64,000 bases of DNA from Rhodocyclales bacterium (lineage in GTDB: Bacteria; Pseudomonadota; Gammaproteobacteria; Burkholderiales; Rhodocyclaceae), in contig JACPEH010000020.1 of the NCBI GenBank assembly GCA_016183655.1, positions 62,001 through 126,000 of the forward strand. Direction: 5' to 3'. Within the stretch, counting starts at the first letter, position 1. Each line of letters starts with the position of its first letter. The position numbers and the translations under genes are program-made. Positions 19,134 to 52,277 of the stretch are shown piece after piece. A model generated the notes under the pieces. That model was not told the DNA's origin, did not search any database, and was given only the letters and a program-made list of their open reading frames with translations.

Positions 19134-19140
19134 CTTGTTT

Positions 19141-19335
19141 TGGCCCCCGCCTGTGCCGTCAGGCCGGCATCCTGAACCTGGGTTCAGAGTGGCTGCTTTC
19201 CTTCCGCATCAGGCCCACCCGACGAAGGGCGCGCACAACAGCGGTTTCGATGGTTCGCAACCGATGCCAATCAGCATTGGTTCAAGGAATGTATGGCCTT
19301 GGCGAACACCGCAGGGGACACTCGGTGGAGGCAAA
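19141..19335 (-). ncRNA. ssrS: 6S RNA (RNA polymerase-binding regulatory RNA)
   Basis: About 195 nt immediately downstream of zapA on the same strand carry no protein gene, and zapA-ssrS is the conserved proteobacterial order. The minus-strand sequence has the expected long hairpin with complementary G/C-rich ends (GTGTCCCCTGCGGTGTTCGCC at the 5' side; GGCACAGGCGGGGGCC at the 3' side), internal CCTTGAACC and CTGAACCCAGGTTCAG helices, and a strong terminator. 6S RNA mimics an open promoter and sequesters the housekeeping RNA polymerase in stationary phase. Exact ends are approximate. Confidence 0.78.
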
Positions 19336-19899: not shown

Positions 19900-20071
19900 G
19901 GCGGCAACTATAGAAGTAAAAATCAAGTCAAGTCAAGGAGTAAGAATGCTTTTTGAATGTGATTTGTGTCGCAGGCAAGCGGCCGGCGCTTTCACCATAC
20001 CGCGCCGCACGGTACAATCCGTCCCTTCGTCGGTCGTCGAACGATTTCATGACCGTCGAAGAGTGCAAGGT

Positions 20072-20265
20072 GCCGCAGCGCAGATTCCTCTGCCGCGGTG
20101 AAACGGGAAAGCGGTGCGCGTGCAGACAACTGCCACGCAATTCCGCTGCTGCCCCCGCAACGGTAAGCGAGTGAAGTCGTGCCAACAAGCCACTGGGTCA
20201 ACCGACCTGGGAAGGCGGCACGTCATAGCCCCGCGAGCCCGGAGACCGGCCTTCGCACGATATAG
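20072..20265 (+). promoter_or_regulatory. Cobalamin riboswitch upstream of btuB
   Basis: The conserved blocks are in order: GGTGAAACGGGAAAGCGGTG near 20097-20116, GCTGCCCCCGCAACGGTAA at 20148-20166, and the B12 box AGCCCGGAGACCGGCC at 20237-20252. Between it and the btuB start (20402) lies a spacer with a self-complementary segment at 20301-20315 that could form part of the expression platform. High adenosylcobalamin should lower expression of btuB and the genes behind it. A weak upstream promoter (TTCACC, 16 nt, TACAAT at 20013-20018) is possible. Confidence 0.95.
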
Positions 20266-20401
20266 CGGACGTGTCGCGGGGAGGCGACGGCAGAGCGCGG
20301 GCAATGGCCCATTGCGCCTTCTGTATTCTGAGCAGCTCCCCCGGTGCGTCCATTTCCGAACCACCGGCTTGCGGGGACGCTTGCCGGAACAGGGGATTCA
20401 C

Positions 20402-22219
20402 ATGTGCGACTCACTTCGTCGGGCCGGCCTCGCTTCCGCCCTTCTTCTTGCTTTTCCCGCTTACGCCAGCGATGCGTCGATGGCTCCCATTGTGGTTACC
20501 GCAACCCGGCAGGCTGCCCGCGTCGACGAGTTGATGGCCGACGTCACGCTGATCGATCGTGAAGAAATCGAGCAGGCCGGTCAGACCTCCATCGAACAAC
20601 TGCTCGCTCGCCAGCCGGGCATCCAGTACACGGCCAACGGCGGGCCGGGTACGAGTAGCGGCATTTTCATCCGCGGCGCCTCGTCCAATCAGTCGATCGT
20701 GTTGGTCGACGGCCAGCGCTTCGGTTCGGCGACCACCGGCGACGCCAGCTGGTCACGCATCCCGCTGTCGCAGGTCGACCGCATCGAAATCCTGCGCGGC
20801 CCGGCTTCGTCGCTTTACGGCGCCGATGCGATCGGCGGCGTCATCCAGATCTTCACCCGGAAGGGCAGCGGCGAACCCCGCCTCAACGCCAGCACCGGCT
20901 ACGGCACGTATAACACCACTGACACTAGTATCGGTGTCTCGGGCAGCAACGAAATCGTTTCCTACAGCCTGCAGGCGGGTTACTACGCCACCGACGGCGT
21001 CAGCGCCATTCACAACAAGAAGAGCAGCTCGTTTAACCCTGACCGCGATGGTTACCGCAACAACAATCTGTCGGGCAACCTGGCCGTACGCCCCGCCAGC
21101 GGGCATGAAATCGGCGCGAATTTCCTCGTGACTGATGGCATCAGCCGCTACGACGGATCAACTAAGACCAGCGACTACAAGAACGATCAGGAGGTGTCGA
21201 ACTACTCCGTCTGGTCCCGTAATCGGTTCGCAAAAAACTGGACGAGCACGCTGCGCATCGGCCGCAGCACAGACGATTCCACGCAAATTAAAGACGGTGT
21301 CGAAACCGGGACCATCAGGACCGATCAGGACCAATACGTGTGGCAGAACGATGTAAAGCTACCGCTGGGTAACGCACTTTTTGCTGCGGAATATCTGAAG
21401 CAAACCGTTTCCGGCACGACCAACTACAAGGTCGACGAGCGCACCATTCGTTCGCTGCTCGCCGGCTGGACCGCCGGCCTCGGCAACCACCAGCTGCAGC
21501 TCAACCTGCGCCGCGACGACAATTCGCAGTTCGGCGGCCGGACCACTGGTGCTGCCACCTACGGCTACCAGTTCACGACGGCGTGGCGCGGGCATGTCTC
21601 CTACGGCACTGCGTTCCGCGCCCCGACGTTCAATCAGTTGTACTTCCCGAACACCTCCGGCGCCCTGTTCGCCGGCAACCCGAATCTGAAGCCGGAGGAG
21701 TCCAGAAACGCCGAAACGGGTATTACGTGGGAAATCAGCCAGCATCGCTTTTCAGCCGTCTATTTCCACAACAGGGTCAAGGACCTGATCATCGGCTGGC
21801 CACTGAAAAACGTCAGCAACGCAACGCTGGAAGGGGTGTCGCTTAGCTATAGCGGACACAAAGGACCGTGGTCCGGCGGCGTCTCCGTCGACCTGCAGCG
21901 CCCGCGCGACGACGACACCGGCAACCGCCTGGCCCGTCGCGCCGACCAGCAGATGTTCAGCCATCTCAGCCGCTCTTTCGGCGACTGGACCCTGGGCGGA
22001 GAATGGCAGTGGGTCGGGCACCGTTACGACGATGCCGCCAACAAGGTGCGGCTCGGCGGCTACGGCCTCGTGAACCTGTTCGCCGAATACCGGGTGGAGA
22101 AGGACTGGGTGCTGTTCGCGCGTGGCAACAACATCTTCGACAAGTACTACGAGACCGTGAACAACTACGGCGTCCTCGGCGCCAACGCGTTCTTCGGCAT
22201 CCGCTACGCGCCGAAGTAG
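20402..22219 (+). CDS. btuB: TonB-dependent vitamin B12 outer-membrane receptor
   Basis: This 605-residue protein has a Sec signal peptide (MCDSLRRAGLASALLLAFPA, cleavage near YAS), a TonB box PIVVTAT at about residues 29-35, a plug domain (IEQLLARQPGIQY, IFIRGASSNQSIVLVDGQRF, EILRGPASSLYGADAIGGVI) and a C-terminal 22-strand barrel. The start was set at 20402, behind AGGGGA; the frame also runs open through the riboswitch. It takes up cobalamin across the outer membrane. The riboswitch and the btuCDF genes that follow support the corrinoid substrate. Confidence 0.94.
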   Translation: MCDSLRRAGLASALLLAFPAYASDASMAPIVVTATRQAARVDELMADVTLIDREEIEQAGQTSIEQLLARQPGIQYTANGGPGTSSGIFIRGASSNQSIVLVDGQRFGSATTGDASWSRIPLSQVDRIEILRGPASSLYGADAIGGVIQIFTRKGSGEPRLNASTGYGTYNTTDTSIGVSGSNEIVSYSLQAGYYATDGVSAIHNKKSSSFNPDRDGYRNNNLSGNLAVRPASGHEIGANFLVTDGISRYDGSTKTSDYKNDQEVSNYSVWSRNRFAKNWTSTLRIGRSTDDSTQIKDGVETGTIRTDQDQYVWQNDVKLPLGNALFAAEYLKQTVSGTTNYKVDERTIRSLLAGWTAGLGNHQLQLNLRRDDNSQFGGRTTGAATYGYQFTTAWRGHVSYGTAFRAPTFNQLYFPNTSGALFAGNPNLKPEESRNAETGITWEISQHRFSAVYFHNRVKDLIIGWPLKNVSNATLEGVSLSYSGHKGPWSGGVSVDLQRPRDDDTGNRLARRADQQMFSHLSRSFGDWTLGGEWQWVGHRYDDAANKVRLGGYGLVNLFAEYRVEKDWVLFARGNNIFDKYYETVNNYGVLGANAFFGIRYAPK

Positions 22220-22225
22220 ATCGCC

Positions 22226-23203
22226 ATGCCCTCCCACCGCCGCGCCGCCCTCGTCCTCGCCCTGCTCGCCCTGCTCGGCGCGGCGAGCTTCGCCGCGGCG
22301 CTGGCGGTCGGCAGCCTGTCGGTGCCGCTGGCCGACGTGGTTGCCGCCCTGGCGGGCGAGCCGGTCGACCATGCCGCGATCGTGCGCGACCTGCGCCTGC
22401 CGCGCGCGCTCGCCGGCTTTGCCTGCGGCGGCCTCTTGGCGCTGGCCGGGGCGCTGATGCAGGTGCTGCTGCGGAATCCGCTGGCCGACCCCTACGTGCT
22501 CGGCATCTCCGGTGGCGCCGGCGTCGGCGCGATGTTCGCCATCCTCCTCGGCCTGTCCGCCGCCGGCCTCAACGGGCTGGCCTTCCTCGGTGCGCTCGGC
22601 GCCATGCTGATCGTCTTCGGCCTGGCGCACGGCGACGGCGCGTGGACGCAGACGCGGCTCCTGCTCACCGGCGTCATCGTCGCCGCCGGCTGCGGCGCGC
22701 TGGTCGCGCTGATGCTCTCGATCGCACCCGAGCACAAGCTGCGCGGCATGCTCTTCTGGCTGATGGGCGATCTCTCGCAGACCGGTGCGCCGTGGGGCGC
22801 TCTCGGCATTCTCGTGCTGGCCCTTGCCGCGTCGCTGCCCTTCGCGCGCGAGCTCAACCTGCTGGCGCGCGGCCACGACACCGCGCAGGCGCTCGGCGTC
22901 GACGTCCGCCGCCTGCGCTATACGGTCTACGCGATCGCCTCGCTGGTCACCGCCGTTGCCGTGACCAGCGCCGGCTCGATCGGTTTCGTCGGGCTGATCG
23001 TGCCGCACCTGGTGCGGCTGGCGATCGGCAACGACCAGCGCCTGTTGCTGCCGGCCGTGGTGCTCGCCGGCGGCGCGCTGCTGACGCTGGCCGACACGCT
23101 GGCGCGCACCGTCGTCGCGCCGCAGCAGCTGCCGGTCGGCGTGCTCACCGCGCTGATCGGCGTGCCGGTCTTCCTCTTCCTGCTGGCGAGGCATCGGCAA
23201 TGA
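22226..23203 (+). CDS. btuC: Vitamin B12 ABC transporter permease
   Basis: This 325-residue FecCD-family permease has about ten membrane helices and the motifs CGGLLALAGALMQVLLRNPLADP, GISGGAGVGA and GSIGFVGLIVPHLVR, where the last holds the coupling helix that contacts the ATPase. It starts 6 nt after btuB. Its stop overlaps the btuD start as ATGA. It carries corrinoids across the inner membrane with BtuD and BtuF. Confidence 0.93.
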   Translation: MPSHRRAALVLALLALLGAASFAAALAVGSLSVPLADVVAALAGEPVDHAAIVRDLRLPRALAGFACGGLLALAGALMQVLLRNPLADPYVLGISGGAGVGAMFAILLGLSAAGLNGLAFLGALGAMLIVFGLAHGDGAWTQTRLLLTGVIVAAGCGALVALMLSIAPEHKLRGMLFWLMGDLSQTGAPWGALGILVLALAASLPFARELNLLARGHDTAQALGVDVRRLRYTVYAIASLVTAVAVTSAGSIGFVGLIVPHLVRLAIGNDQRLLLPAVVLAGGALLTLADTLARTVVAPQQLPVGVLTALIGVPVFLFLLARHRQ

Positions 23204-23982
23204 GCGCGCACGAACCACCGCTCATCGAAACCCGTGGTCTTGCCGTCAGCGTCGGCGGCCACACCGTCTGCCGCGACCTCGCCTTCGCGCTTGCCGCCGG
23301 CGAACGGCTGGCCATCCTCGGCCGCAACGGTGCCGGCAAATCGACGCTGCTGTCGGTGCTCGCCGGCCTGCGCGACGCCGACGCCGGCGAAGTCCGTCTC
23401 GGCGGCGAAACCTACGCCGCGCTCGGCCCGCGCGCGGCGGCGAAGCGCCGCGGCTGGCTGCCGCAGCGGCACAGCGACGCCTTCGCCTCGACCGTGCTGG
23501 AGACGGCGCTGACCGGCCGCCATCCGCATCTCGGCCGCTGGGACTGGGAGTCGAAGCAGGACACCGAAATCGCACGCGGCGCGCTCAAGGCCGTCGGCCT
23601 CGCCGAGATGGCAGAGCGCGACGTGCAGACCCTCTCTGGCGGCGAGCGTCAGCGCCTGGCGATCGCCACGCTGCTGACGCAGGCGGCGCCGCTCTACCTG
23701 CTCGACGAGCCGCTCGCCCATCTCGACCTCAACCACCAGATCGCCGTGCTCGACCTGTTCGCCGGTGCTGCCCGTGATTGCCAGGCCGGCATCGTCATCG
23801 TCCTGCACGAACCGGCGCTGGCCTGGCGCTACTGCGACCGGGCGCTGCTGATCCACGGCGACGGCCGCACCGAACTCGGCCCGGTGCGCGAGATGCTCAC
23901 CGCCGAGCGACTCTCGGCCTTGTACCAGCACCCCTTGTGCGCCATCGAAGCCGACGGAATGATCGGCTTCATTCCGCGCTGA
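23200..23982 (+). CDS. btuD: Vitamin B12 ABC transporter ATPase
   Basis: This 260-residue ABC ATPase has Walker A GRNGAGKST (41-49), signature LSGGE (145-149), Walker B LYLLDEP (165-171) and a switch His in VLHEP. The start overlaps btuC by 4 nt; the open frame extends upstream within btuC and btuB but that is not the gene. It powers the BtuCDF importer. Confidence 0.93.
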   Translation: MSAHEPPLIETRGLAVSVGGHTVCRDLAFALAAGERLAILGRNGAGKSTLLSVLAGLRDADAGEVRLGGETYAALGPRAAAKRRGWLPQRHSDAFASTVLETALTGRHPHLGRWDWESKQDTEIARGALKAVGLAEMAERDVQTLSGGERQRLAIATLLTQAAPLYLLDEPLAHLDLNHQIAVLDLFAGAARDCQAGIVIVLHEPALAWRYCDRALLIHGDGRTELGPVREMLTAERLSALYQHPLCAIEADGMIGFIPR

Positions 23983-24004: not shown

Positions 24005-24796
24005 ATGAACTCTCTGCGCCTGCTGCTTTCGTTGCTCACGCTCGTCGCGTGCCATGCGGTCGCCGCCGACTGCCCGCGCATCGTCAGCCAGTCGCCGTAT
24101 CTGACCATTGCCCTCGACTGGCTCGGCCGCGGCGACTGCATTGTCGGCGTCTCGCGCTACGACAAGCGCGACCTGCCGCAAACGGGCGGTGTCAGCGACC
24201 CGGATGCGGCGGCGATCGCTGCGCTGAAGCCGGACCTGATCGTCACCTCGCAACTGACCGCCGCCGACACGCTGGCCGCCGTCACCCCCGCCGGTGCGCG
24301 TGCGCTGCGCCTCGGCGGCTATCGCTCGCTGGCCGAGACCGAGCAGATGGTCGCCGAGCTGGCCGTTGCCAGCGGTGCCGAAAATGGCGAAGCGCGCGCC
24401 CGCGAGTTCAGCCGCGAACTGCAGCAGCGCCTGGCGGCGGTCCCCGCGCGCCAACGCCGCATCCTGTTCGTTTCCGCCTGCGCGACGCAGCCCTATTCGT
24501 ACGGCCGCAACACGATGCTCGGCGACCTTGCCGAGAAAGCCGGCTTCACCCTCGCCGACGACGCCGAGGGCATCCGCCACGTCTACGCCGGCGAAGCCAT
24601 CGACAGCATTCCGGCGCTGATCGAAGCGACGCGCGCCGAGGTCGTCGTCAACTTCCTGACCAAATCGGAAAACTACTGCGACGCGCGCCTGGCGACGCTG
24701 CCGGTGACGCTGGTGATGCTGCCCGGCGACAATTTCTTTCACCCCGGGCCGCGCCTGCTCGAAGGCCTGGACGAACTCAAGGAGGCCCTGGAATGA
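24005..24796 (+). CDS. btuF: Periplasmic cobalamin-binding protein
   Basis: This 263-residue class III binding protein has an N-terminal signal (MNSLRLLLSLLTLVACHAVA). Both a type I cleavage at AVA-A and a lipobox-like LVAC are visible, so it may be soluble or lipid-anchored. The body has PRIVSQSPYLTIALDWLG, ALKPDLIVTSQ and two lobes joined by a helix, as in BtuF. It delivers corrinoids to BtuC. Its stop overlaps cobO by 4 nt. Confidence 0.9.
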   Translation: MNSLRLLLSLLTLVACHAVAADCPRIVSQSPYLTIALDWLGRGDCIVGVSRYDKRDLPQTGGVSDPDAAAIAALKPDLIVTSQLTAADTLAAVTPAGARALRLGGYRSLAETEQMVAELAVASGAENGEARAREFSRELQQRLAAVPARQRRILFVSACATQPYSYGRNTMLGDLAEKAGFTLADDAEGIRHVYAGEAIDSIPALIEATRAEVVVNFLTKSENYCDARLATLPVTLVMLPGDNFFHPGPRLLEGLDELKEALE

Positions 24797-25404
24797 GCGA
24801 TGACACCGGGCGCGAACAGCGCCACCACGACCGCATGCAGCGCAAGAAGGAAGTGATCGACGCCAAGGTCGCCGCGGCGCAGGAAGAGCGCGGCATCCTG
24901 CTGGTCAACACCGGCAACGGCAAGGGCAAATCGTCGGCTGCCTTCGGCGTCGTCGCCCGTGCGCTCGGCCATGGCCACCAGGTCGCCGTCGTCCAGTTCG
25001 TGAAGAGCCGCTCCGACACCGGCGAGGAAGGCTTCTTCCGCAAGTTCCCCGAGCAGGTGCGCTGGCACGTCTGCGGCGAGGGCTTCACCTGGGAGACGCA
25101 GGACAGCAACCGCGACACGCTCGCCGCGCAGGCCGCGTGGAAGATCGCGCTGGGCTACCTGGCCGACGAGACGGTGAACCTGGTCGTCTTCGACGAGATG
25201 ACCTACGCCTTCAAGTACGGCTGGCTGGATCTCGCCGAGGTGCTGGCGGCGATCGCCGCGCGGCCGAAAATGCAGTCGGTGATCGTCACCGGCCGCGCGG
25301 CGCCGGAGGCGCTGGTCGGGGCCGCCGACACCGTCACCGAGATGGGCATGGTCAAGCACGCCTTCAAGGCCGGCGTCAAGGCGATGCCCGGCGTCGAGTT
25401 CTGA
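24793..25404 (+). CDS. cobO: Cob(I)alamin adenosyltransferase (CobO/BtuR type)
   Basis: This 203-residue P-loop enzyme has GNGKGKSS (41-48), FVKSRSDTGEEGFF, VVFDEMTYAFKYGW and VTGRAAPEALV, the CobO/CobA/BtuR pattern. It adds the 5'-deoxyadenosyl group to reduced corrinoids. The start was set by the ATGA overlap with btuF. It salvages corrinoids brought in by BtuBCDF and serves de novo synthesis; its product is the cofactor of the mutase in region 1. Confidence 0.95.
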   Translation: MSDDTGREQRHHDRMQRKKEVIDAKVAAAQEERGILLVNTGNGKGKSSAAFGVVARALGHGHQVAVVQFVKSRSDTGEEGFFRKFPEQVRWHVCGEGFTWETQDSNRDTLAAQAAWKIALGYLADETVNLVVFDEMTYAFKYGWLDLAEVLAAIAARPKMQSVIVTGRAAPEALVGAADTVTEMGMVKHAFKAGVKAMPGVEF

Positions 25405-25545
25405 ATTCGTGAAAAACCCTGCTGCGCTTGCCATATCGGGCTTCCGCGGTGCTCGCGTCGTTGCCGTACCGTCAGTACGGCTTCCTCGCTGCGCTCCGGG
25501 GGCGCCCGATCTGGCTGCGCTCGCGACGGATTTTCTTCACGAATT
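25404..25545. repeat. Palindromic repeat element between cobO and the CobN coding region
   Basis: A 142-bp nested inverted repeat: outer arms AATTCGTGAA (25404-25413) and TTCACGAATT (25536-25545) are perfect. Inner arms GCCATATCGGGC (25430-25441) and GCCCGATCTGGC (25504-25515) match 11 of 12. The core GCCGTAC / GTACGGC (25463-25469, 25475-25481) closes a 5-nt loop. It begins on the last base of the cobO stop and ends on a possible TTG start of cobN. It looks like a mobile palindromic (REP/MITE-like) intergenic element. Confidence 0.75.
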
Positions 25546-28500
25546 GCGCTTCGTTGCTCGCCACCTGACGCTCGCCGCCGCCTGCCTGCTGCCGCTGCCG
25601 GCCCTCGCCGCGACGCTGTTCGGCGTCGTCACCGAGCGCGCCGCGCCGCTCGCCGCCGAGGCCGCCGCCCGGCATCTGGCGGCGCATCCCGGCGACCGCC
25701 TCGTGCTGCGCACACCGGCGCAACTGCTGGCGATGCCGGAGAAACAGCTGGCGCGCGCGCTCGCCGAGGCCGACGCGGTGCTCGCCGTCGCCGTCTTCGG
25801 CGACCCGGCGCGCAAGCTGAAGGAGGCCCTGCCGCGGCACGCCCGCGCCGGCACGCGCGTCGTCGCGATCAACGGCGAGCAGACGCTGTCGCTGCTGTCG
25901 CGGCCGGCGGCCGGGGGCACGCTCGCCGCACTCAACGATTTCCCCGGCGAGACGCTGCGCAACCTCACGCTCGAAAAACCGCCGGCCGACGCGCTCGCCG
26001 CCGCCGCGGCACATCCCGGCGCGCGCGCCTGGCTGGCGCTGCGGCAGACCTGGCAGGCCGGCGGTAGCGACAACGTCGCCCACCTCTACCGCCACCTGCT
26101 GCACCCGGAAACGCCGTTGCCGCCGCCGCAGCCCGAACCCTCGCTGCGCGTGCGCGTCGGCGCCGGCGCACAGGTTCGCGAGCGCACCGATGCCGAGGCC
26201 TGGCGCGGCAACGCGCTGCCGGCCGGCCCGGCGCTGGTCGTGCTCGACCTCGCCAACGCCGACCCGGCGCCGGCCGACGCGCTGTGCGCCGCGTCGCGCC
26301 GGAAGGGGCTGCCCTGCGCGGTGGTGATGGCGCGCTGGGCGGCAACTTCGCGCGAGGTCGTCGAGCGCCTGCCCGAGCTGCTGGCGCCGGCGAAAGCGGC
26401 GGCGCTGGTGGTGCTGCAGGACTTCGTCGTCGGCGCCGCCGAGCACCGCGAGGCGGTCAGCGCGGCGCTGGCGAAGCTCGACGTGCCGGTGATCAAGGCC
26501 ATTCGCCTGACCGACCGCACGGCGATGCAATGGCGCCTGTCGCCCGACGGCCTGCCGCCGGATTCGGTGCAGTACCGCGTCGCGCTGCCCGAACTGCAGG
26601 GCAGCGGCCAGCCGATCGTCGTCGCCGCCTCCGGCCGGCCGACGACCGACCGCCGCACCGGCATCGAGATCCGCCGTCCCGAGGCCATCGCCGCCGAGGT
26701 CGAGCGGCTGGTCGCGCGCGCCGTGCGCTGGCAGGCGCTGGCGCAGAAGAAGAACTTCGACAAGCGCGTCGCGCTGATCTACTACAACCACCCGCCGGGG
26801 CGGCAGAACATCGGCGCCGACAACCTCGACGTGCCGCAGTCGCTGTTCCACCTGCTGCACGCGCTGCGGGCCGCCGGCTACGACACCGGCGACGCCGGCA
26901 AATTGCCGGCCTCGCCCGAGGCGCTGCTCGACCTGATCATGGAGCGCGGCGTGAACCTGCCCGAGGACCAGGCCGCGCTCGCCGAGATGGCGCCGAACGT
27001 GAACGGCGTTGCCGCCGCCGACTACGCAGCGTGGTTCGGCACGCTGCCGGCGCGCGTGCAGGGCGAAATGGTCGACGGGCCGCTCGGCCGCCTGCACGCC
27101 GAGGTGCTGGAAGCGGAGCAGGCCGGCGAGCGGGCGCTCGGCAACAAGCGCGTCGAGGCCGCGCTGAAGGAGCTGCACCACCTGGTCGAGGGCGCCGACC
27201 ATCCGCGCCGCCAGGAGGCGCTGGCGTTGCTGAAGAAACTGGAGGACGGCTACGCGCAGTGCCTGGCCGACCAGCGTCGCGCGCCGTGCGCCGGCAACGC
27301 CACGACCGCCCGCCGGCTGGCCGCGCTCGGCATCGAGGGCATGCGCGGCTGGGGCGCGGCGCCGGGGCGGGTGATGGTGCATGGCAAGGGCAAGTACAAA
27401 AATGCCGACGCCCGCCTGCTGGTGCCCGGCCTGGTCTTCGGCAAGGTCTTCGTCGGCCCGCAGCCGCCGCGCGGCTGGGAGGTCGACGAGGAGCTGCTGC
27501 ACGCCAACACCAGCATCACGCCGCCGCACCAGTTCCTCGCCTTCTACCACTGGCTGCGCGACCGCTTCCGCGCCGACGCGCTGGTGCACCTCGGCCGCCA
27601 CTCGATCTACGAGTTCCTGCCCGGCAAGGCCGTCGGGCTGGCCGCCGACGACTACCCGAGCCTGGTCGCCAGCGATCTGCCCGGCATCTACCCGTACATC
27701 GTCGACGGCGTCGGCGAGGGCATCCAGGCCAAGCGCCGCGGCCTGGCGGTGATCGTCGACCACCTGACGCCGCCGCTCGCGGCGACGCCGCTCTACGACC
27801 AGCTGCTGGCGCTGCGCCAGGTGGTCGAGAGCTTCGAGGCGAGCAACTCGGAGGCGGTCAAGGCGACCGCCGCGCGCACCATGCGCGAGCAGGTGGTCGC
27901 GCTCAACCTGAAGCAGGAGCTGGAGGCCTCGATGGCCGACGTGCTGGCAGTGCGCGGCATCGGCTTCGACGCGGCCGACGACGAACTGCTGGCGCACGAG
28001 ATCGGCCACTACCTGACCAAGCTGCAGGAGAAGTTCATGCCCTTCGGCCTGCACGTCTTCGGCCGCGACTGGTCGCGCGAGTCGCTCGACCTGATGCTCG
28101 GCTCGATGAGGAAGGGGGGCGTTGACGATCCGGCGGTCGAGGCGAAGCTCGCCGCGTCGCCGCGGCTGGAAATGGCGGCGCTGCTGGCCGGTCTCGACGG
28201 CCGCTACATCGCTCCGGGCAAGGGCAACGACCCGCTGCGCTCGCCCGAAGCGCTGCCGACCGGCCGCAACTTCCATGCCGTCGATGGCGACCTGCTGCCG
28301 ACGCGGATCGGCTACCAGCTCGGGCAGGACTTCGCGGTACGGGCGATGAAAAAGAAGGCGGCGCACGAGGGCAGCGAGGCGATCATCCTCTGGGCCTCCG
28401 ACGCGGTGCGCGACGAAGGCGTCATGGTCGGCTTCGCGCTGGCGCTGATGGGCGCCGAGCCGGTGTGGAACGCGCGCGGCATCGTCACCGACGTCCGCCT

Positions 28501-29914
28501 GCTGCCGGGCGTGCCGCGCCGCGACGTGGTCGTCACCACCTCCGGCCTCTTTCGCGACCTCTATCCCAACCTGCTGCGCCTGATCGACCGCGCCGGCCGG
28601 CTGGCGCTCGCCGCCTCCGCCGAGGCGCTGGTCCGCGCGCGGCCGGAACTGCGGGAAGCGCTCGCCGCGGCGCTGCAGCCGCTGCCGGCGGTGAGCTGGG
28701 GCGACGAAGCGCCGGCCGCCAACCGCGTTGCCGGCGAATGGCTGCAGCGCGTGCAGGCCTTGCAGCAAGGCGGCCTGCCGCTCGCCGCCGCCGGCCGCGA
28801 GGCGGCGCTACGCCTGTTCGGCGACGCCCCGGGCGCCTACGGCGCCGGCATCAACCGGCTGACCGAACGCTCCGGCGCGTGGAACGAGCGCCTCGAACTG
28901 GGCAAGGTCTACCGCACGCGGCTCGGCCACGCCTACGGGCTCGCCGCCGACGGCGAGGCGGCGCACGCCGCCTTCGACGTCGCGCTCGCCAACATCGGCC
29001 GCGCCTGGCATGGGCGTGCCAGCAACCTCTACGGCGTGCTCGACAACAACGACGCCTTCGACTACCTCGGCGGCCTCTCGCTCGCCGTCGAGGGACTCAC
29101 CGGCCGCCGCCCGGAAGGCCTGATCCTGCAGCACGCCGACCCCGGCCGCGCCGACATCGAACCGCTCGCCACCGCCGTCCTCGGCGAGCTGCGCGGCCGC
29201 TTCCTCAACCCGGCCTGGCTGAAGCCGCTGATGGCCCACGGCTACGCCGGCGCGCGCACGATGGGCCAGGAGTTCCTCGAAAACCTGTGGGGCTGGCAGG
29301 TGACGCGCCCGGACCTGATCGAGAACTGGGCCTGGGACGAGGTCAAGTCGGTCTATTTCGACGACGCAAAGAAGCTCGGTCTGCCCGAGTTCCTCGGCCA
29401 GGGGCAGAACGCCCACGTCAAGGCGCACATGCTGTCGATCTTCATGGTCGCCGCGCACAAGGGCTTCTGGAAAACGGACGAGGCGACGATCCGCAAGATG
29501 GGCGGCGAGTTGGCGCAGCTGGCGGCGAAGAACGGCCTGCCCGGCAGCGGCCACGCGGCGCCGAACCACCCGATGTGGGCGTGGCTGGCGCCGCAGCTCG
29601 CCGCCGCCGACGCGCAGGCGCTCGGCGTCGTGCTGGCGAAGGCGCGCGGCGACGCACCGCCGCCGGCGTGGGCGCCGTCGGCCGCGGCAGCGAAGCCGAC
29701 ACTGGGCCCGCAGGCCGCCGCCGCGGCGACGCTGGTCGAACCGCCGGCGCCGGAACAGGCGCCAGCGCGCCACTACGAACTGACCCGCGCCGAAGCGCCG
29801 GGCACGGCGCTGCCGATTCCTGCCGCCGTCCTCGCGTTGCTGCCGCTGCTCTTCATCGCCGGCCTCTGGCGCGGCACCACCTTCACCCCGACCCCCTTCC
29901 GGAGAACAGAATGA
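25409..29914 (+). CDS. cobN: CobN-like cobaltochelatase large subunit, membrane-anchored envelope variant
   Basis: The open frame gives up to 1501 residues from GTG (25409); the only other usual start codon before the conserved part is TTG at 25544 (1456 residues). Starting at TTG gives a good signal peptide (RFVARHLTLAAACLLPLPA, cleavage near ALA). The first 45 codons from GTG are translated palindromic repeat. The body is CobN/ChlH family (GPQPPRGWEVDEELLHANTS; EFLPGKAVGLAADDYPSLV; DVVVTTSGLFRDLYPNLLRLID; SNLYGVLDNNDAFDYLGGLS). The usual HxGTHG site reads HLGRHS at about 27587-27604. The C-terminus has a Pro/Ala linker and one membrane helix (AVLALLPLLFIAGLW). No CobS or CobT gene is nearby, and CbiX is present. 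The next genes encode an ExbB-like and a DUF2149 protein, so a periplasmic energised role is likelier than ring cobalt insertion. Confidence 0.88.
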   Translation: MKNPAALAISGFRGARVVAVPSVRLPRCAPGAPDLAALATDFLHELRFVARHLTLAAACLLPLPALAATLFGVVTERAAPLAAEAAARHLAAHPGDRLVLRTPAQLLAMPEKQLARALAEADAVLAVAVFGDPARKLKEALPRHARAGTRVVAINGEQTLSLLSRPAAGGTLAALNDFPGETLRNLTLEKPPADALAAAAAHPGARAWLALRQTWQAGGSDNVAHLYRHLLHPETPLPPPQPEPSLRVRVGAGAQVRERTDAEAWRGNALPAGPALVVLDLANADPAPADALCAASRRKGLPCAVVMARWAATSREVVERLPELLAPAKAAALVVLQDFVVGAAEHREAVSAALAKLDVPVIKAIRLTDRTAMQWRLSPDGLPPDSVQYRVALPELQGSGQPIVVAASGRPTTDRRTGIEIRRPEAIAAEVERLVARAVRWQALAQKKNFDKRVALIYYNHPPGRQNIGADNLDVPQSLFHLLHALRAAGYDTGDAGKLPASPEALLDLIMERGVNLPEDQAALAEMAPNVNGVAAADYAAWFGTLPARVQGEMVDGPLGRLHAEVLEAEQAGERALGNKRVEAALKELHHLVEGADHPRRQEALALLKKLEDGYAQCLADQRRAPCAGNATTARRLAALGIEGMRGWGAAPGRVMVHGKGKYKNADARLLVPGLVFGKVFVGPQPPRGWEVDEELLHANTSITPPHQFLAFYHWLRDRFRADALVHLGRHSIYEFLPGKAVGLAADDYPSLVASDLPGIYPYIVDGVGEGIQAKRRGLAVIVDHLTPPLAATPLYDQLLALRQVVESFEASNSEAVKATAARTMREQVVALNLKQELEASMADVLAVRGIGFDAADDELLAHEIGHYLTKLQEKFMPFGLHVFGRDWSRESLDLMLGSMRKGGVDDPAVEAKLAASPRLEMAALLAGLDGRYIAPGKGNDPLRSPEALPTGRNFHAVDGDLLPTRIGYQLGQDFAVRAMKKKAAHEGSEAIILWASDAVRDEGVMVGFALALMGAEPVWNARGIVTDVRLLPGVPRRDVVVTTSGLFRDLYPNLLRLIDRAGRLALAASAEALVRARPELREALAAALQPLPAVSWGDEAPAANRVAGEWLQRVQALQQGGLPLAAAGREAALRLFGDAPGAYGAGINRLTERSGAWNERLELGKVYRTRLGHAYGLAADGEAAHAAFDVALANIGRAWHGRASNLYGVLDNNDAFDYLGGLSLAVEGLTGRRPEGLILQHADPGRADIEPLATAVLGELRGRFLNPAWLKPLMAHGYAGARTMGQEFLENLWGWQVTRPDLIENWAWDEVKSVYFDDAKKLGLPEFLGQGQNAHVKAHMLSIFMVAAHKGFWKTDEATIRKMGGELAQLAAKNGLPGSGHAAPNHPMWAWLAPQLAAADAQALGVVLAKARGDAPPPAWAPSAAAAKPTLGPQAAAAATLVEPPAPEQAPARHYELTRAEAPGTALPIPAAVLALLPLLFIAGLWRGTTFTPTPFRRTE

Positions 29915-29916
29915 CA

Positions 29917-29994
29917 CATCCCCCACGCTCACTTCGTTCGCTGCCCCCCGAGGGGGCGCAGGCCTCCTTTGGGGCGGCCCGGCAGGAGGCCTGA
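29917..29994. repeat. GC-rich intergenic repeat between cobN and the ExbB-like gene
   Basis: The stretch contains CCCCCACGCTCACTTCGTTC and CTGCCCCCCGAGGGGGCG, then GGGGCGGCCCGGC, a repeat type common in betaproteobacterial intergenic DNA. CCCCCCGAGGGGGC is self-complementary. An ATG overlapping the cobN stop (29911) opens a 27-codon frame through the repeat ending TGA at 29994. This frame is probably not a real protein but may keep ribosomes moving to the next gene. Confidence 0.65.
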
Positions 29995-29995
29995 G

Positions 29996-30439
29996 ATGAT
30001 CGATTCCGCCCTGCTTCCCTGGCTGCACGAAGCCGTCACCTGGCTGCTGGCGCCGGCGCTCGCCGCGCTGGTCGCCGCCTGCGCGATCGCCGCGATCGAA
30101 GCCGGCCTCGCCATCGGCGAGCGCTTCTCCGGCCTTGCCCGGCTGCGCGCCAGCGGCGACCTGCCGCGCGTGCAGGCCATCGCCCGCCACCGGCTGGAGC
30201 GCGCCGACCTGCTGGCGCGCATCCCGCCGATGCTCGGCCTGATGGCCACCATCATCCCGCTCGGACCGGGCCTCGCCGCGCTCGGCCAGGGCGACCCGGC
30301 CAAGCTCGCGTCGGCCGTCACCGTCGCCTTCGACGCCACCGTGCTCGGCCTGGTCGCCGGCATCGCCGGCCTGGTCATCGGCAAGCTGCGCCGCCGCTGG
30401 TATGAGGAAGTGCTGGAGGCGATGGAGGACGCGGCATGA
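29996..30439 (+). CDS. MotA/TolQ/ExbB-family proton channel subunit linked to CobN
   Basis: This 147-residue protein has three membrane segments. Its last two carry the family signature (RIPPMLGLMATIIPLGPGLAAL, then AVTVAFDATVLGLVAGIAGLVIG). The AGGAGG ribosome site lies at the end of the preceding repeat. It overlaps the DUF2149 gene by 4 nt. ExbB-type subunits form pentameric channels that use proton motive force together with an ExbD-type partner. Together with the anchored CobN-like protein, this suggests an energised envelope complex for cobalt or corrinoid handling. The role is inference from context. Confidence 0.85.
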   Translation: MIDSALLPWLHEAVTWLLAPALAALVAACAIAAIEAGLAIGERFSGLARLRASGDLPRVQAIARHRLERADLLARIPPMLGLMATIIPLGPGLAALGQGDPAKLASAVTVAFDATVLGLVAGIAGLVIGKLRRRWYEEVLEAMEDAA

Positions 30440-30777
30440 GCGGCACCGCGCCGCGCAAGCGCCTGCGCCTCTATTCGAAACTCGACGCGCGCTTCGACGA
30501 CCGCGACGAGGACCCGCGCGCCAGCCTAGTGAATCTGGTCGACGTGATGCTGGTCTTTGCCTGCGGCCTGCTGGCCGCGCTCGCCGCCGGCAGCCAGGCG
30601 GCGCTGAAGCAGCCGGTGCCGGTCGACAAGGGGCGCGAGGTCGAGCGGCCGGCGGCCGGCGCGCAGCAGGCGGGGGCCGGCTACGACCGCGTCGGCGAGG
30701 TCTTCCGCGACCCGAAGAGCGGGAAACTGATCCTGATCGAGCCGGCGGCGACGCCGGCCCGCCCCGCCGCCGAATGA
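30436..30777 (+). CDS. DUF2149 protein, ExbD-like partner
   Basis: This 113-residue protein has a short cytoplasmic N-terminus, one membrane helix containing the family signature DPRASLVNLVDVMLVFACGL and a periplasmic tail. The Asp within NLVDVMLV recalls the proton-carrying Asp of ExbD/TolR (PLVDVMLV). It starts in an ATGA overlap with the ExbB-like gene. The CobN/ExbB-like/DUF2149 trio recurs in other cobalamin loci, so it probably forms the stator of that complex. Confidence 0.85.
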   Translation: MSGTAPRKRLRLYSKLDARFDDRDEDPRASLVNLVDVMLVFACGLLAALAAGSQAALKQPVPVDKGREVERPAAGAQQAGAGYDRVGEVFRDPKSGKLILIEPAATPARPAAE

Positions 30778-30801: not shown

Positions 30802-31308
30802 ATGAAGACACTGTTCTCCCTGCTGTTGCTGTGCCTGCTCGGCATGGCCATGCCCGCCGCCGCCACGCCCGGCGAAGTCGCCATCGGCCAGACGCTGCGC
30901 GAAGCGAACATGCAGGGCCTGACCGGCCCGGCACGCAAGCTCTCCGAATTCCGCGGCAAGCCGCTGATCATCAATGTCTGGGCCAGCTGGTGCGGGCCGT
31001 GCCGCGCCGAGATGGGCTCGCTCGACCGCCTCGCACGGCGCTACGGCAAGCAGTTCAACGTCATCGGCATCTCCACCGACGACTACACGGCGCGCGCCAA
31101 CACCTTCCTCAAGGCGGCGAACACCGCGTTCCCGCACTTCATCGACAACCGGCTGGAACTGGAGAACATGCTCGGCGCCGACCGCATCCCGCTGACGCTG
31201 CTGATCGACGCGCAGGGCAAGGTGCTCGGCAAGTACTACGGTGCCAAGGAGTGGGACAGCCCGGAAGCGATCGAGACGATCGGCAAGGGCTTCGGCCTCC
31301 GCCTGTAG
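30802..31308 (+). CDS. TlpA/ResA-like thiol-disulfide oxidoreductase, exported
   Basis: This 168-residue protein has a Sec signal peptide (MKTLFSLLLLCLLGMAMPAA) and a thioredoxin fold with NVWASWCGPCRAEM (Cys64, Cys67) and the cis-Pro segment RIPLTLLID. Such proteins reduce periplasmic disulfides, for example in cytochrome c maturation or metal-site assembly. It sits between the DUF2149 and cobB genes in the same direction. A role in keeping periplasmic corrinoid or cobalt-handling cysteines reduced is possible but unproven. Confidence 0.88.
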   Translation: MKTLFSLLLLCLLGMAMPAAATPGEVAIGQTLREANMQGLTGPARKLSEFRGKPLIINVWASWCGPCRAEMGSLDRLARRYGKQFNVIGISTDDYTARANTFLKAANTAFPHFIDNRLELENMLGADRIPLTLLIDAQGKVLGKYYGAKEWDSPEAIETIGKGFGLRL

Positions 31309-31354: not shown

Positions 31355-32647
31355 ATGCGCCTTTCGTGTCCTACCCTCCTCGTTGCCGCCCCCGCCTCCG
31401 GGCAGGGCAAGACCACCGTCGTCGCCGCGCTGGCGCGGCTGCATGCGCGGCAGGGCAGGAAGGTGCGCGTGTTCAAGTGCGGGCCGGATTTCCTCGACCC
31501 GCAGATCCACGCCGTGGCCAGCGGCGCGCCGTGCGCCAACATCGACCTGTGGATGTGCGGCGAGGCCGACGCGCGCTGGCGGCTGGCGGAAGCCGCGCGC
31601 GACGCCGACCTGATCCTGATCGAAGGCGTGATGGGCCTGTTCGACGGCGACCCGTCGGCGGCCGAGCTGGCGACGCGCCTCGGCATCCCGATCCTGACCG
31701 TGATCGACGGCGCGGCGATGGCTTCGAGCTTCGGTGCGATCGCCTACGGCCTCAAGCACTACCGGCCGGGGACGCCGCTCAGCGCGGCCTTCGCCAACCG
31801 CGTCGGCAGCGACTACCACGCCGAGCTGCTGAAGAAGAGTTTGCCCGACGACATCCGCTGGATGGGCGCCTTGCCGCGCGACGACTATGCGGCGATGCCC
31901 GAGCGCCACCTCGGCCTGTTGCCGGCGGCCGAGATCGCCGACCTCTCGGCGCGCCTCGACCGCATGGCCGACGCGCTGGCGAAGACCGACGCCGCGGTGC
32001 TGCCGCCGGCGGTCGACTTTGCCGATGCGCCGCCGCCGCAACTGCCGCCCTTGCTCGCCGGCCGGACCATCGCGGTGGCCCGCGATGCCGCCTTCTGCTT
32101 CCTCTATCCGGCCAACCTCGACTGCCTCGCGGCGATGGGCGCCCGGCTCACCTTCTTCTCGCCGCTCGCCGACGCCGCGCTACCCGACTGCGACGCAGTG
32201 TGGCTGCCCGGCGGCTACCCGGAGCTGCACGGCGACGCGCTCGCCGCCAACCGGCCGCTGTGGGCGTCGCTCGCCGCGCACGTCGCCGCCGGCAAGCCGG
32301 CGCTTGCCGAGTGCGGCGGCATGATGGCGCTGTTCGAGACGCTGGCCGACGTCGCCGGCAACGCGCATCGCCTGGCCGGCCTGCTCCCCGGCCGCGTCGC
32401 GATGCAGAAGAGGCTGGCCGCGCTCGGCATGCAGGAAGTGGCGCTCGACGGCGGCGACGCCATCCGCGGCCACACCTTCCACTACTCGCAGGCGGAGACG
32501 CCGCTGGCGCCGTTCGCGCGCGCCGCGAAGAAGCAGGGCGCCAGCGCCGGCGAGCCGGTCTATCGCGTGCAGCGACTCACCGCCAGCTACCTGCACCTCT
32601 ACTTCCCGTCGAACCCGGTCGCCGTCGCCGGCCTGTTCACGGCTTGA
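31355..32647 (+). CDS. cobB: Cobyrinic acid a,c-diamide synthase
   Basis: This 430-residue protein has an N-terminal P-loop synthetase domain (VAAPASGQGKTTV, residues 10-22; FKCGPDFLDPQIH) and a C-terminal class I glutamine amidotransferase domain with its nucleophile near Cys320 (LAECGGMM) and GHTFHYSQ near 372-379. It amidates the a and c side chains of cobyrinate. The start follows tlpA by 46 nt. It ends the btuB-led run, so the whole 20.4-32.6 kb set may be one riboswitch-controlled unit. CobB/CbiA cannot be told apart by sequence alone; with CbiX, CbiD and CbiG nearby the substrate is probably cob(II)yrinate. Confidence 0.94.
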   Translation: MRLSCPTLLVAAPASGQGKTTVVAALARLHARQGRKVRVFKCGPDFLDPQIHAVASGAPCANIDLWMCGEADARWRLAEAARDADLILIEGVMGLFDGDPSAAELATRLGIPILTVIDGAAMASSFGAIAYGLKHYRPGTPLSAAFANRVGSDYHAELLKKSLPDDIRWMGALPRDDYAAMPERHLGLLPAAEIADLSARLDRMADALAKTDAAVLPPAVDFADAPPPQLPPLLAGRTIAVARDAAFCFLYPANLDCLAAMGARLTFFSPLADAALPDCDAVWLPGGYPELHGDALAANRPLWASLAAHVAAGKPALAECGGMMALFETLADVAGNAHRLAGLLPGRVAMQKRLAALGMQEVALDGGDAIRGHTFHYSQAETPLAPFARAAKKQGASAGEPVYRVQRLTASYLHLYFPSNPVAVAGLFTA

Positions 32648-44384: not shown

Positions 44385-44504
44385 GCGGACCTCCCTTCGG
44401 CGGACAGAGGGACACCATGCGCGAGGGGCGCGGTTCGACGGACGGACGGCGCGGGCCGAGTTCGACTGAAGCTTTCCCGTCACCCCGGGGAATAGTGTCG
44501 CGTT

Positions 44505-44712
44505 GATTCCAGGCCGGTCTTCTGGCTCGCCCTCGACCTCCTCCGGCCTGCCTTCCCACCCCTCGCGGGGCAGTGGCGTAGCGCCGGAATCGTCGGGCTT
44601 ACAGCAGCGGGGGCTGCGCCGGACTGACCGAGCCAAGCATCGGTTTCACCGGACTTCCCGTTTCACCCCGGCTGCAGACGCAGCACGGGGCACCTGATTC
44701 ACGGGCGGCAGG
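44505..44712 (-). promoter_or_regulatory. Cobalamin riboswitch upstream of cbiM
   Basis: On the minus strand the order is GGGGTGAAACGGGAAGTCCGG, GCGCAGCCCCCGCTGCTGTAA, then the B12 box GCGAGCCAGAAGACCGGCC (44512-44530). The aptamer ends about 120 nt before cbiM. It should shut down cobalt import and corrin synthesis when adenosylcobalamin is plentiful. The 400-nt gap between cbiM and msrB is otherwise empty. Confidence 0.94.
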
Positions 44713-47992: not shown

Positions 47993-48056
47993 GCGCCCGC
48001 TTATACCGCAGCCGCCCGGTGCCGGCAACACGGCCGCCGTGCTAACATCGCCGCTC

Positions 48057-48303
48057 GCTTCAGGTGCCTGCCGCGGAGAAAACGCTACGCGGCGGGTGAA
48101 ACGGGAATGAGGTCATGGCGACCGGGTCGCCAGCAAGCCTCAGCTGCCCCCGCAACGGTAGGCGAGTGTGGGTGTGTCGGGCGGTTCACAAACCGCAGCC
48201 ACTGGACGATGACGTGACCTTGCTGCAACGGCAAGGCGCGCGGATCGACCGGGAAGGCGACGCATCAAGACTCGCAAGCCCGGAGACCGGCCTGACGCAC
48301 GGT
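48057..48303 (+). promoter_or_regulatory. Cobalamin riboswitch upstream of the second TonB-dependent receptor
   Basis: GCGGGTGAAACGGGAATGAGG near 48092, GCTGCCCCCGCAACGGTAGG at 48142-48161 and the B12 box GCAAGCCCGGAGACCGGCCTG (48273-48293) are in order, with a long variable arm between. The receptor ATG is at 48425. Vitamin B12 should repress the receptor and possibly the tonB/exbB genes behind it. Confidence 0.94.
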
Positions 48304-48424
48304 GCCGCCAACCCGGCGGTCGTTCAACAGCCTGTCTGCGGGGTAGCGGAGGGCGGCGGATTCCCATGCCTTTTTCGCATGCAGCGCCGACTCCCGAGCG
48401 GACAGCCGTTTCTGGAGTCGGAAC

Positions 48425-51992: not shown

Positions 51993-52277
51993 GTGCCGGT
52001 CGACCTGCCGCGGGTCGACGCCACCCGCATCGACGACAAGCCGCAGGTGCTCGCGGTGGCGATCGACGGCGACGGCAAGGTGTTCGTCGACGGCGTCGTG
52101 CAGCACCGCAGCGCGCTGCCCGAGGTGTTCGCCGCGGCCATGGTGAACGGCCGCGAGCCCGAGCTGCACCTGCGCGCCGACCGCGGCACGCGCTACGAGC
52201 GCGTCACCGAGGTGCTGGCCGAGGCGCAGCGGGCGGGGATCGTGAAGATCGCCTTTGTCACCGAGCCGGCGCGCTGA
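51993..52277 (+). pseudogene. exbD: ExbD, N-terminally truncated (membrane helix missing)
   Basis: The 94-residue frame begins at GTG directly after the exbB stop and its TAAGGAGG. It encodes only the periplasmic ExbD domain (PVDLPRVDATRIDDKPQVLA, VFVDGVVQHRSALPEVF, RYERVTEVLAEAQRAGIVKI). The usual N-terminal 40-45 residues, with the membrane helix and its essential Asp, are absent, and no frame upstream supplies them. A deletion of about 130 nt is the simplest reading. The product could not function as a standard ExbD. Confidence 0.78.

Follow-up and report, generated by a model that had tools for sequence, protein, structure and literature searches.

A B12-regulated branch of the HmuS/BtuS kind, in which an anchored CobN-like protein accompanied by an ExbB-like/DUF2149 pair probably handles corrinoids outside the cytoplasm

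In the class I chelatases CobNST and ChlHID, the large subunit CobN or ChlH is driven with ATP by the motor proteins CobST or ChlID, and the substrate of CobNST is the a,c-diamide (PMC7689651). HmuS (PDB 9d26) is a membrane-bound haem de-chelatase that acts on the tetrapyrrole (PMC12583661), and it belongs to the hmuYRSTUV operon of Bacteroidota, in which hmu genes are annotated as CobN, ExbB and DUF2149 (PMC10434189). In a figure legend, Nath et al. pair HmuU and HmuV with the receptor HmuR (PMC12583661). Here we describe a locus of this kind that stands under B12 control. It lies within a stretch of 64,000 nucleotides (the window; positions 62,001 to 126,000 of contig JACPEH010000020.1, assembly GCA_016183655.1, Rhodocyclales bacterium) and encodes an anchored CobN-like protein and, after it, an ExbB-like and a DUF2149 protein (together the trio) in an operon headed by a cobalamin riboswitch (Table 1). 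The source genome is a betaproteobacterial draft, 88% complete, whose nearest relative in our tree is a Rhodocyclaceae metagenome-assembled genome (MAG; L028).

Three further systems invite comparison. The BtuS family (BtuS1 and BtuS2 of Bacteroides fragilis) is a third type of CobN-related protein, predicted to be periplasmic and anchored and placed in metalloporphyrin salvage (PMC6460266). Rocha et al. trace its name to Rodionov 2003, and Hmu-like operons of B. fragilis with a cobalamin riboswitch had been noted earlier (PMC10100974). These studies concerned haem iron in Bacteroidota, whereas the branch described here is found mainly in Beta- and Gammaproteobacteria. In Pseudomonas aeruginosa, the Zur operon PA1922-PA1925 holds TonB receptor, CobN-like, ExbD-annotated and DUF2149 genes (PMC9431628, PMC4542158). 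PA1924 is described as a receptor partner (PMC8456098, PMC4542158), and the operon is also treated in PMC13083405; it is controlled by zinc, unlike ours, and we liken the two by gene content as given in the literature. The third system is the cobN cluster of plasmid pSZ77 of Trichlorobacter (Geobacter) lovleyi, in which the trio stands under a cobalamin riboswitch and for which earlier authors saw that CobS and CobT are missing and proposed a distinct role (PMC3403914). On this plasmid (L172, 8717-18699) the order is riboswitch, receptor, DUF2162, ExbB-like, DUF2149 and CobN, followed by ExbB-ExbD-TonB. The cluster differs from our locus in having DUF2162 and ExbB-ExbD-TonB and in a second motif that resembles that of locus L025, which sets it outside the B12 clade by motif. 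The main text of a survey of riboswitch regulons (PMC3766115), in the part available, mentions no cobN, exbB or btuS, and among titles and abstract openings of the open-access papers that our text searches returned we found no description of a riboswitch-controlled trio across Proteobacteria. What is new, as far as these texts go, is how widely the riboswitch control extends, the bias towards salvaging hosts, the residues peculiar to the branch and the link of the CobN helix with the ExbB-like/DUF2149 pair.

Judged by its sequences, the locus represents a branch of the HmuS/BtuS kind that is regulated by B12. The kind itself was known before (HmuS, BtuS and the Pseudomonas Zur operon), which the first-pass annotation of the window was unaware of. 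A tree of 42 proteins, made by a quick search with support from the Shimodaira-Hasegawa-like approximate likelihood ratio test (SH-aLRT) only and leaving out Bacteroidota BtuS1 and T. lovleyi, gives 100 to the B12 branch (25 rows), 100 to Bacteroidota HmuS, 97 to a mixed group that includes the second copy of the genome, 99 to cytosolic CobN and 100 to BchH. The anchored types group together at 90, under the 95 mark, and the order among them is unsettled in this tree. The likeness to HmuS extends over the CobN fold, an N-terminal hydrophobic segment, a C-terminal helix, ExbB-like and DUF2149 neighbors, a TonB receptor and the equivalent of His538, which is kept in all 84 B12-branch proteins. 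This His sits in a GRHS motif throughout the branch (84/84), in place of the GTHG of HmuS (HFG(T/A)HG) and the GKHG of the cytosolic CobN rows. The differences from HmuS are several. His1209 and Glu1212 of HmuS (LSLDHxxEFMGG) are both replaced by Asp in every branch row that has the residue when aligned to 9d26, and the Asp at the His1209 position is also found in the cytosolic CobN proteins compared. The place of the haem ligand His254 is taken by Ala in the window protein, as read by hand through an uncertain alignment; the alignable part of 9d26 starts only at residue 121, past the haem ligand Met79. The Met-rich insertion of HmuS domain IV is missing (40 residues here, 2 of them Met; in three Bacteroidota proteins the region has 152-341 residues, 8-31 of them Met), no HmuT-like gene stands between the CobN and ExbB genes, and a B12 riboswitch and a B12-type receptor replace the HmuY and haem receptor of an HmuS-type operon. 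Because these HmuS-defining features fail, we regard the CobN-like protein as a relative of HmuS and not as HmuS proper, although it may still work alike. What characterizes the BtuS type, namely PF02514, an export signal with an anchor (topology by hydropathy) and a position apart from CobN and ChlH, is found here.

The source genome (G000) carries a second full trio (L005, 5860-16702 of contig C12), placed with a haem/haemoglobin receptor that scores over two cut-offs (TIGR01786, 457 versus 324; TIGR01785, 432 versus 317), as well as with a further TonB receptor and a permease that resembles EfeU but stays below its cut-off. No cobalamin riboswitch was found at this locus. Two versions of the machine, one for haem and one for B12, thus seem to coexist in one genome. 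The arrangement bears on whether the B12-side protein might itself be a haem or porphyrin de-chelatase like HmuS that came under B12 control by chance. Homology to HmuS and the grouping of the anchored types at SH-aLRT 90 speak for such an activity; however, a separate trio already stands next to the haem receptor, and the B12 clade differs at the HmuS-specific residues, which makes this explanation highly improbable.

Comparison also supports a CobN-like body that would face the periplasm and be anchored by its C-terminal helix. We rejected a GTG start at 25409 in favor of TTG 25544, given that the first 45 residues read from the former are intergenic read-through with inverted ends, unique in the genome; the TTG start yields MRFVARHLTLAAACLLPLPALA-A, a typical signal peptide as judged by eye. 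The cobO-cobN intergenic stretch concerned (25405-25545) has the inverted ends ATTCGTGAA and TTCACGAAT and occurs once in the genome. Among 80 full-length branch members (the window, L022-L024 and named loci, with a few duplicates), a hydrophobic N-terminal segment is present in 78 by hydropathy, a C-terminal helix with hydropathy of at least 1.6 in 74, and a net positive charge behind that helix in all 74, which by the positive-inside rule places the body on the periplasmic side. In the proteins used for comparison (cytosolic CobN, BchH and archaeal CobN), hydropathy showed no such C-terminal helix. The large subunits of CobNST and ChlHID share the class I chelatase fold; they are cytosolic and served by an ATP motor. 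The C-terminal tails carry a GxxxG packing motif in 69 of 77 cases, against a mean of 14.7 for shuffled tails. A Cys pair seen in the first four orthologues was considered as a family disulfide and rejected, being present in only 48 of 84 proteins and thus a subgroup trait. For comparison, Porphyromonas gingivalis HmuS made in E. coli was located in the inner membrane with possible periplasmic exposure (PMC13227078). The first-pass annotation had described a periplasm-facing CobN-family protein with a signal-peptide-like start and a C-terminal membrane helix, and this description agrees with the profile match, with the hydropathy of both segments and with the comparison across the branch.

The trio and its riboswitch recur together. 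Counts out of 80 rest on the best 80 of at least 531 relatives from a scan of named genomes, which include Beta- and Gammaproteobacteria as well as Nitrospirota, Nitrospinota and Myxococcota. An ExbB-like gene adjoins the CobN gene in 74 of these loci and a DUF2149 gene in 72; the whole trio is present in 72, and the eight incomplete loci comprise five contig ends and three from Marinobacter. Chance alone would yield far less co-occurrence than this. In 75/80 loci a cobalamin riboswitch precedes the CobN gene on its own strand, within 700 bp of the CobN open reading frame in 46 and at 0.9-7.5 kb in 29. It was counted with a covariance model (R1) for which the window and loci L022-L024 supplied 8 sequences; L022 and L047 have one and the same sequence, and L023 and L024 are apparently L052 and L049, so those rows match R1 by construction. 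When six weak riboswitch loci were compared with Rfam, L065, L073, L079, L089 and L100 were upheld and L077 was not. Of the five loci in which no riboswitch was seen, L058, L078, L085 and L101 have less than 1.6 kb of upstream sequence, and L084 counts as a genuine absence. The riboswitch stands directly before the trio in most loci of Massilia, Duganella, Zoogloea and Stutzerimonas, and in 44/80 loci six queries from the window (receptor, BtuC, BtuD, BtuF, CobO and CobB) gave no match over 60 bits on the same strand, which indicates that the riboswitch often serves the trio alone. Other recurrent neighbors include CobD, BluB, CobU, CbiB and the phosphoribosyltransferase CobT (9 to 16 loci each), all of late or salvage steps. 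In Marinobacter the CobN-like gene stands amid receptor, BtuF, BtuC, BtuD, CobB and CobO genes and is thereby tied to uptake. The B12 connection of the trio, proposed in the first-pass annotation as work on corrinoids or cobalt, is supported by this comparison of sequences, and the neighborhood survey suggested there found the trio intact in most loci with CobS over its cut-off in 0/50 host genomes.

The hosts themselves point to salvage. CbiC/CobH is needed by both ring-building pathways and is absent from 68 of the 79 host genomes in which it was scored (41/50 and 27/29; the loci are all 80 but L097), and CbiD is absent from 42 of 50. Most hosts therefore look like corrinoid salvagers; some of them are MAGs of unstated completeness, so absences can be gaps. 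The source genome is one of the minority of ring makers, with corrin ring genes (cbi), named by eye, at about 33-42 kb of the window. CobS, scored like CbiD in the genomes of 50 of the 80 loci, exceeds 500 bits in two, reaches 117 bits in one and gives weak matches in 16 more, none of them over the curated cut-off. The first-pass annotation had stated that neither CobS nor CobT is present: CobS indeed has no match in the 88% complete source genome, whereas CobT was not searched for. These absences also bear on the simplest name for the protein, an ordinary cytosolic late cobaltochelatase CobN, which the first-pass annotation had already doubted. The Pfam family PF02514 would suit it. The protein lies, however, under all nine matched NCBIfam CobN/BchH cut-offs (584 bits versus 1619 in the top row; 508 versus 822), falls in a separate clade, appears exported and anchored by hydropathy and lacks a recognizable CobS in its own genome, CobS being near-absent from the hosts as well. 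This identity has next to no chance of being correct. The second anchored copy of the genome passes one CobN model (1449 versus 1248), so that model is no test of function.

The C-terminal helix tracks the ExbB-like/DUF2149 pair. We scored 131 CobN-family proteins for a helix (hydropathy 1.0 or higher within the 60 C-terminal residues) and for both partners within 3 kb, leaving out proteins under 1000 residues and counting identical tails once. With four cut or frame-broken loci dropped (L051, L061, L086 and L098) and L005 and L108 accepted with partners just past 3 kb, helix and both partners occur together in 85 proteins, all are absent in 41, and the helix stands alone in one (L110), an agreement of 126/127. 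Larger stretches examined for 15 helix-less proteins (among L153-L171) and for Marinobacter L173 held no partner on the same strand, and L152, a relative with the same motif variant as Marinobacter, keeps the helix and both partners. The CobN-like protein of L154 (4419-8369) has the helix and both partners but no longer carries the HxGxH motif or the second motif, and is perhaps a non-catalytic form. This co-variation is pertinent to a different explanation, that the pair energises the TonB receptor while the CobN-like gene is merely a neighbor. Published descriptions lean that way, with HmuU and HmuV drawn as HmuR partners (PMC12583661) and PA1924 given a like role (PMC8456098, PMC4542158). 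The pair nevertheless follows the CobN helix, and 44/80 loci have no receptor or other B12 gene recognized on the same strand. In T. lovleyi a complete ExbB-ExbD-TonB set coexists with the trio, which argues against the pair being simply a receptor energiser; the window likewise has a TonB-ExbB pair of its own, but with the ExbD helix missing. We judge a pure receptor role very unlikely.

Both partners resemble stator components in part. The ExbB-like protein matches PF01618 (36.2 bits, cut-off 22.9), and its model has three long helices at a predicted local distance difference test value (pLDDT) of 94. Foldseek returned ExbB/TolQ chains in the first 44 of 50 rows, with TM-scores of about 0.5, a best E-value of 0.013 and none below 0.001. 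The first-pass annotation thus named this three-helix MotA/TolQ/ExbB protein correctly. Its comparison of the DUF2149 protein with ExbD holds in part. The protein (PF09919, 36 bits) is modelled with one confident helix at residues 27-56, and its membrane Asp36 is invariant (73/73); the model as a whole (predicted template modelling score 0.29) is of low confidence outside the helix and, at that confidence, has no ExbD-type periplasmic domain. When the protein was aligned with one from the same genome that by eye is of ExbD/TolR type, only 22 columns matched, around (N/P)xx(V/I)DVMLV (E 0.0024, probability 12%), so the likeness to ExbD holds for the membrane segment only. In ExbBD-TonB and TolQR-TolA, an ExbB-type fold and a one-helix partner with a membrane Asp go with a third protein that has one membrane helix, as here; the third protein of the trio is, in contrast, an enzyme-like CobN anchored at its C-terminus. 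The co-variation of helix and pair, the GxxxG motif, the invariant Asp and the coexistence in T. lovleyi suggest that the pair drives the CobN-like protein, by analogy with the driving of CobN and ChlH by CobST and ChlID through ATP.

In bacteria of several phyla, the trio probably works on B12-type molecules beyond the cytoplasm when these are salvaged. It would be a machine for handling corrinoids that is driven by protons and probably acts on their metal state. We favor, by a little over an even chance, a full proposal in which a corrinoid-salvage machine at the periplasmic face has its CobN-like protein driven by protons through the ExbB-like/DUF2149 channel. The CobN-like protein, class I chelatase-like, would be exported, held in the inner membrane by its C-terminal helix and docked by that helix onto the channel, where proton flow would do mechanical work on it in place of the cytosolic ATP motor (CobST, ChlID). 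When coenzyme B12 is low, the riboswitch would turn the operon on; a corrinoid would enter via the BtuB-type receptor, be bound and worked on by the CobN-like protein and be released to BtuFCD, after which it would be amidated by CobB and adenosylated by CobO. The work may consist of forced binding and release and may also set the metal state of the corrinoid. We infer the proton drive from the invariant DUF2149 Asp, the ExbB-type fold and the co-variation of helix and pair; direct contact between the proteins, a corrinoid as substrate and the kind of work are likewise putative. A more specific version, in which the stator of ExbB-like and DUF2149 proteins pulls the CobN-like protein by its helix and so changes the metal state of periplasmic corrinoids in B12-salvaging bacteria, replacing the ATP motor, is a tentative idea that we would not expect to hold in full. 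We know of no such reaction for B12.

Setting the metal state could mean inserting cobalt. The CobB and CobO steps flank cobalt insertion in the late-insertion pathway, and CobB makes the a,c-diamide in the cytoplasm. Periplasmic insertion into imported metal-free or wrongly metallated corrins, as a way to salvage incomplete corrinoids, would fit the Asp at the HmuS His1209 position, shared with the cytosolic CobN proteins compared, the CobB and CobO genes in the operon here and in relatives, and the lack of ring synthesis in 68/79 hosts. Metal-free corrin ligands are moreover able to take up Ni, Zn and Cu (PMC7693184, PMC6790578, PMC12174906). CobNST, however, acts on the a,c-diamide (PMC7689651), and the CobB product would arise behind a periplasmic protein; nor was a cobalt supply gene recognized in the ten searched of the 45 largest neighbor clusters. 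We consider cobalt insertion unlikely, though both it and forced binding and release to BtuF fit the data. The opposite reaction, in which a corrinoid de-chelatase strips cobalt to feed cobalt needs as HmuS strips haem iron, draws on HmuS being the nearest characterized anchored relative (PMC12583661) and on P. aeruginosa, where the Zur operon with its CobN-like gene was proposed as a partial cause of the raised cobalt of a znuA mutant (PMC4542158). Cobalt corrins resist removal of cobalt without destruction of the ring (PMC6771967), and a switch turned off by B12 would turn on the destruction of B12 just when B12 is short, for which reasons de-chelation is unlikely; the branch also lacks the Met-rich insertion and the second metal-facing His that HmuS has. 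We hold it to be quite improbable.

Several observations weigh against a proton-driven corrinoid machine. We came across no experiment on a proven B12-branch member. In B. fragilis, protoporphyrin was still released when both btuS1 and btuS2 were mutated, at about twice the amount seen in the parent (PMC6460266), so enzymatic action by the HmuS/BtuS kind is not agreed on. BtuC, CobO or CobB is nearby in only 32/80 loci (over 60 bits, same strand), so that the link to B12 depends mostly on riboswitch control. The alignment leaves DUF2149 unproven as a homologue of ExbD. A flank of 3 kb on both sides was available for only 6 of the 41 helix-less proteins, and the rows of the helix count are related, so that the independent events amount to about the split between anchored and cytosolic types plus one loss of the Marinobacter type. 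In Marinobacter both the helix and the neighboring partners are lost, with no match to a Marinobacterium DUF2149 query in three Marinobacter-type genomes, while the N-terminal hydrophobic segment is kept and the gene still stands in a B12 uptake operon; the CobN-like protein is thus able to dispense with the pair. Two Cupriavidus loci, L110 of the count and L174 outside it, have the helix without partners in their stretches. Each of these (L110 6440-10558; L174 5068-9141) has a second, cytosolic-type CobN nearby, and at L110 the anchored and the cytosolic-type CobN are separated by a gene that, judged by eye, resembles CobW.

If the favored proposal of a proton-driven salvage machine is true, it would give this branch of the HmuS/BtuS kind, which is under B12 regulation and found mostly in Proteobacteria, a function in corrinoid salvage. 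It would also offer the whole kind a testable answer to what the ExbB-like and DUF2149 proteins do beside HmuS, since the published schemes considered here tie the pair to the outer-membrane receptor and the helix co-variation points to the CobN-like protein instead. CobN-like genes are often annotated as cobaltochelatase, even in bacteria that build no ring, and both this annotation and predictions of B12 producers would change.

The features of the operon are collected in Table 1. The names of the receptor, BtuC, BtuD and BtuF are best matches and not assignments, because all four lie under their cut-offs.

Table 1. Features of the riboswitch-headed operon, in window coordinates
Feature	Position	Strand	Basis
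Cobalamin riboswitch, operon head	20050..20268	+	RF00174, 115 bits
TonB-dependent receptor, B12 type (BtuB-like)	20402..22219	+	TIGR01779 TonB-B12, 463 bits, under cut-off 599.7; receptor and plug domains
BtuC-like permease	22226..23203	+	Best match NF007081 BtuC, 230 bits, under cut-off
BtuD-like ATPase	23200..23982	+	Top matches haem/corrinoid ATP-binding cassette (ABC) ATPase families, under cut-off; start re-chosen
BtuF-like periplasmic binding protein	24005..24796	+	PF01497, 22 bits, under cut-off
CobO/BtuR corrinoid adenosyltransferase	24793..25404	+	NF004637 and TIGR00708, over cut-off
Anchored CobN-like protein, B12 branch of HmuS/BtuS kind	25544..29914	+	PF02514, 796 bits; clade support 100; TTG start inferred
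Signal-peptide-like segment MRFVARHLTLAAACLLPLPALA	25544..25609	+	Sequence and hydropathy 2.03
GRHS signature, His equivalent to HmuS His538	27593..27604	+	R, H and S each 84/84 in clade
Asp1170 and Asp1173, at the HmuS His1209/Glu1212 places	29051..29062	+	81/81 rows with residue, 3 gaps; HmuS alignment
C-terminal membrane helix with GxxxG	29816..29869	+	Hydropathy 2.49, then net +2
ExbB-like three-helix protein	29996..30439	+	PF01618, structure model, Foldseek
DUF2149 protein, single membrane helix, Asp36	30436..30777	+	PF09919; Asp36 in 73/73; model
TlpA-like periplasmic thioredoxin	30802..31308	+	PF08534 over cut-off; TlpA/ResA families under cut-off
CobB cobyrinate a,c-diamide synthase	31355..32647	+	NF002204 and TIGR00379, over cut-off

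Elsewhere in the window, a 6S RNA match at 19140-19320 (-) scores 49.5, barely over the gathering score of 46.4. Two further cobalamin riboswitches lie at 44493-44712 (-) and 48045-48309 (+), the second of which heads a TonB receptor-TonB-ExbB cluster. The TonB-ExbB pair of the window (50827 and 51254; 50.8-52.0 kb) is followed by an ExbD gene at 51993-52277 that matches PF02472 only from position 36 and is without its membrane helix in this assembly, which could be a deletion or an assembly fault.

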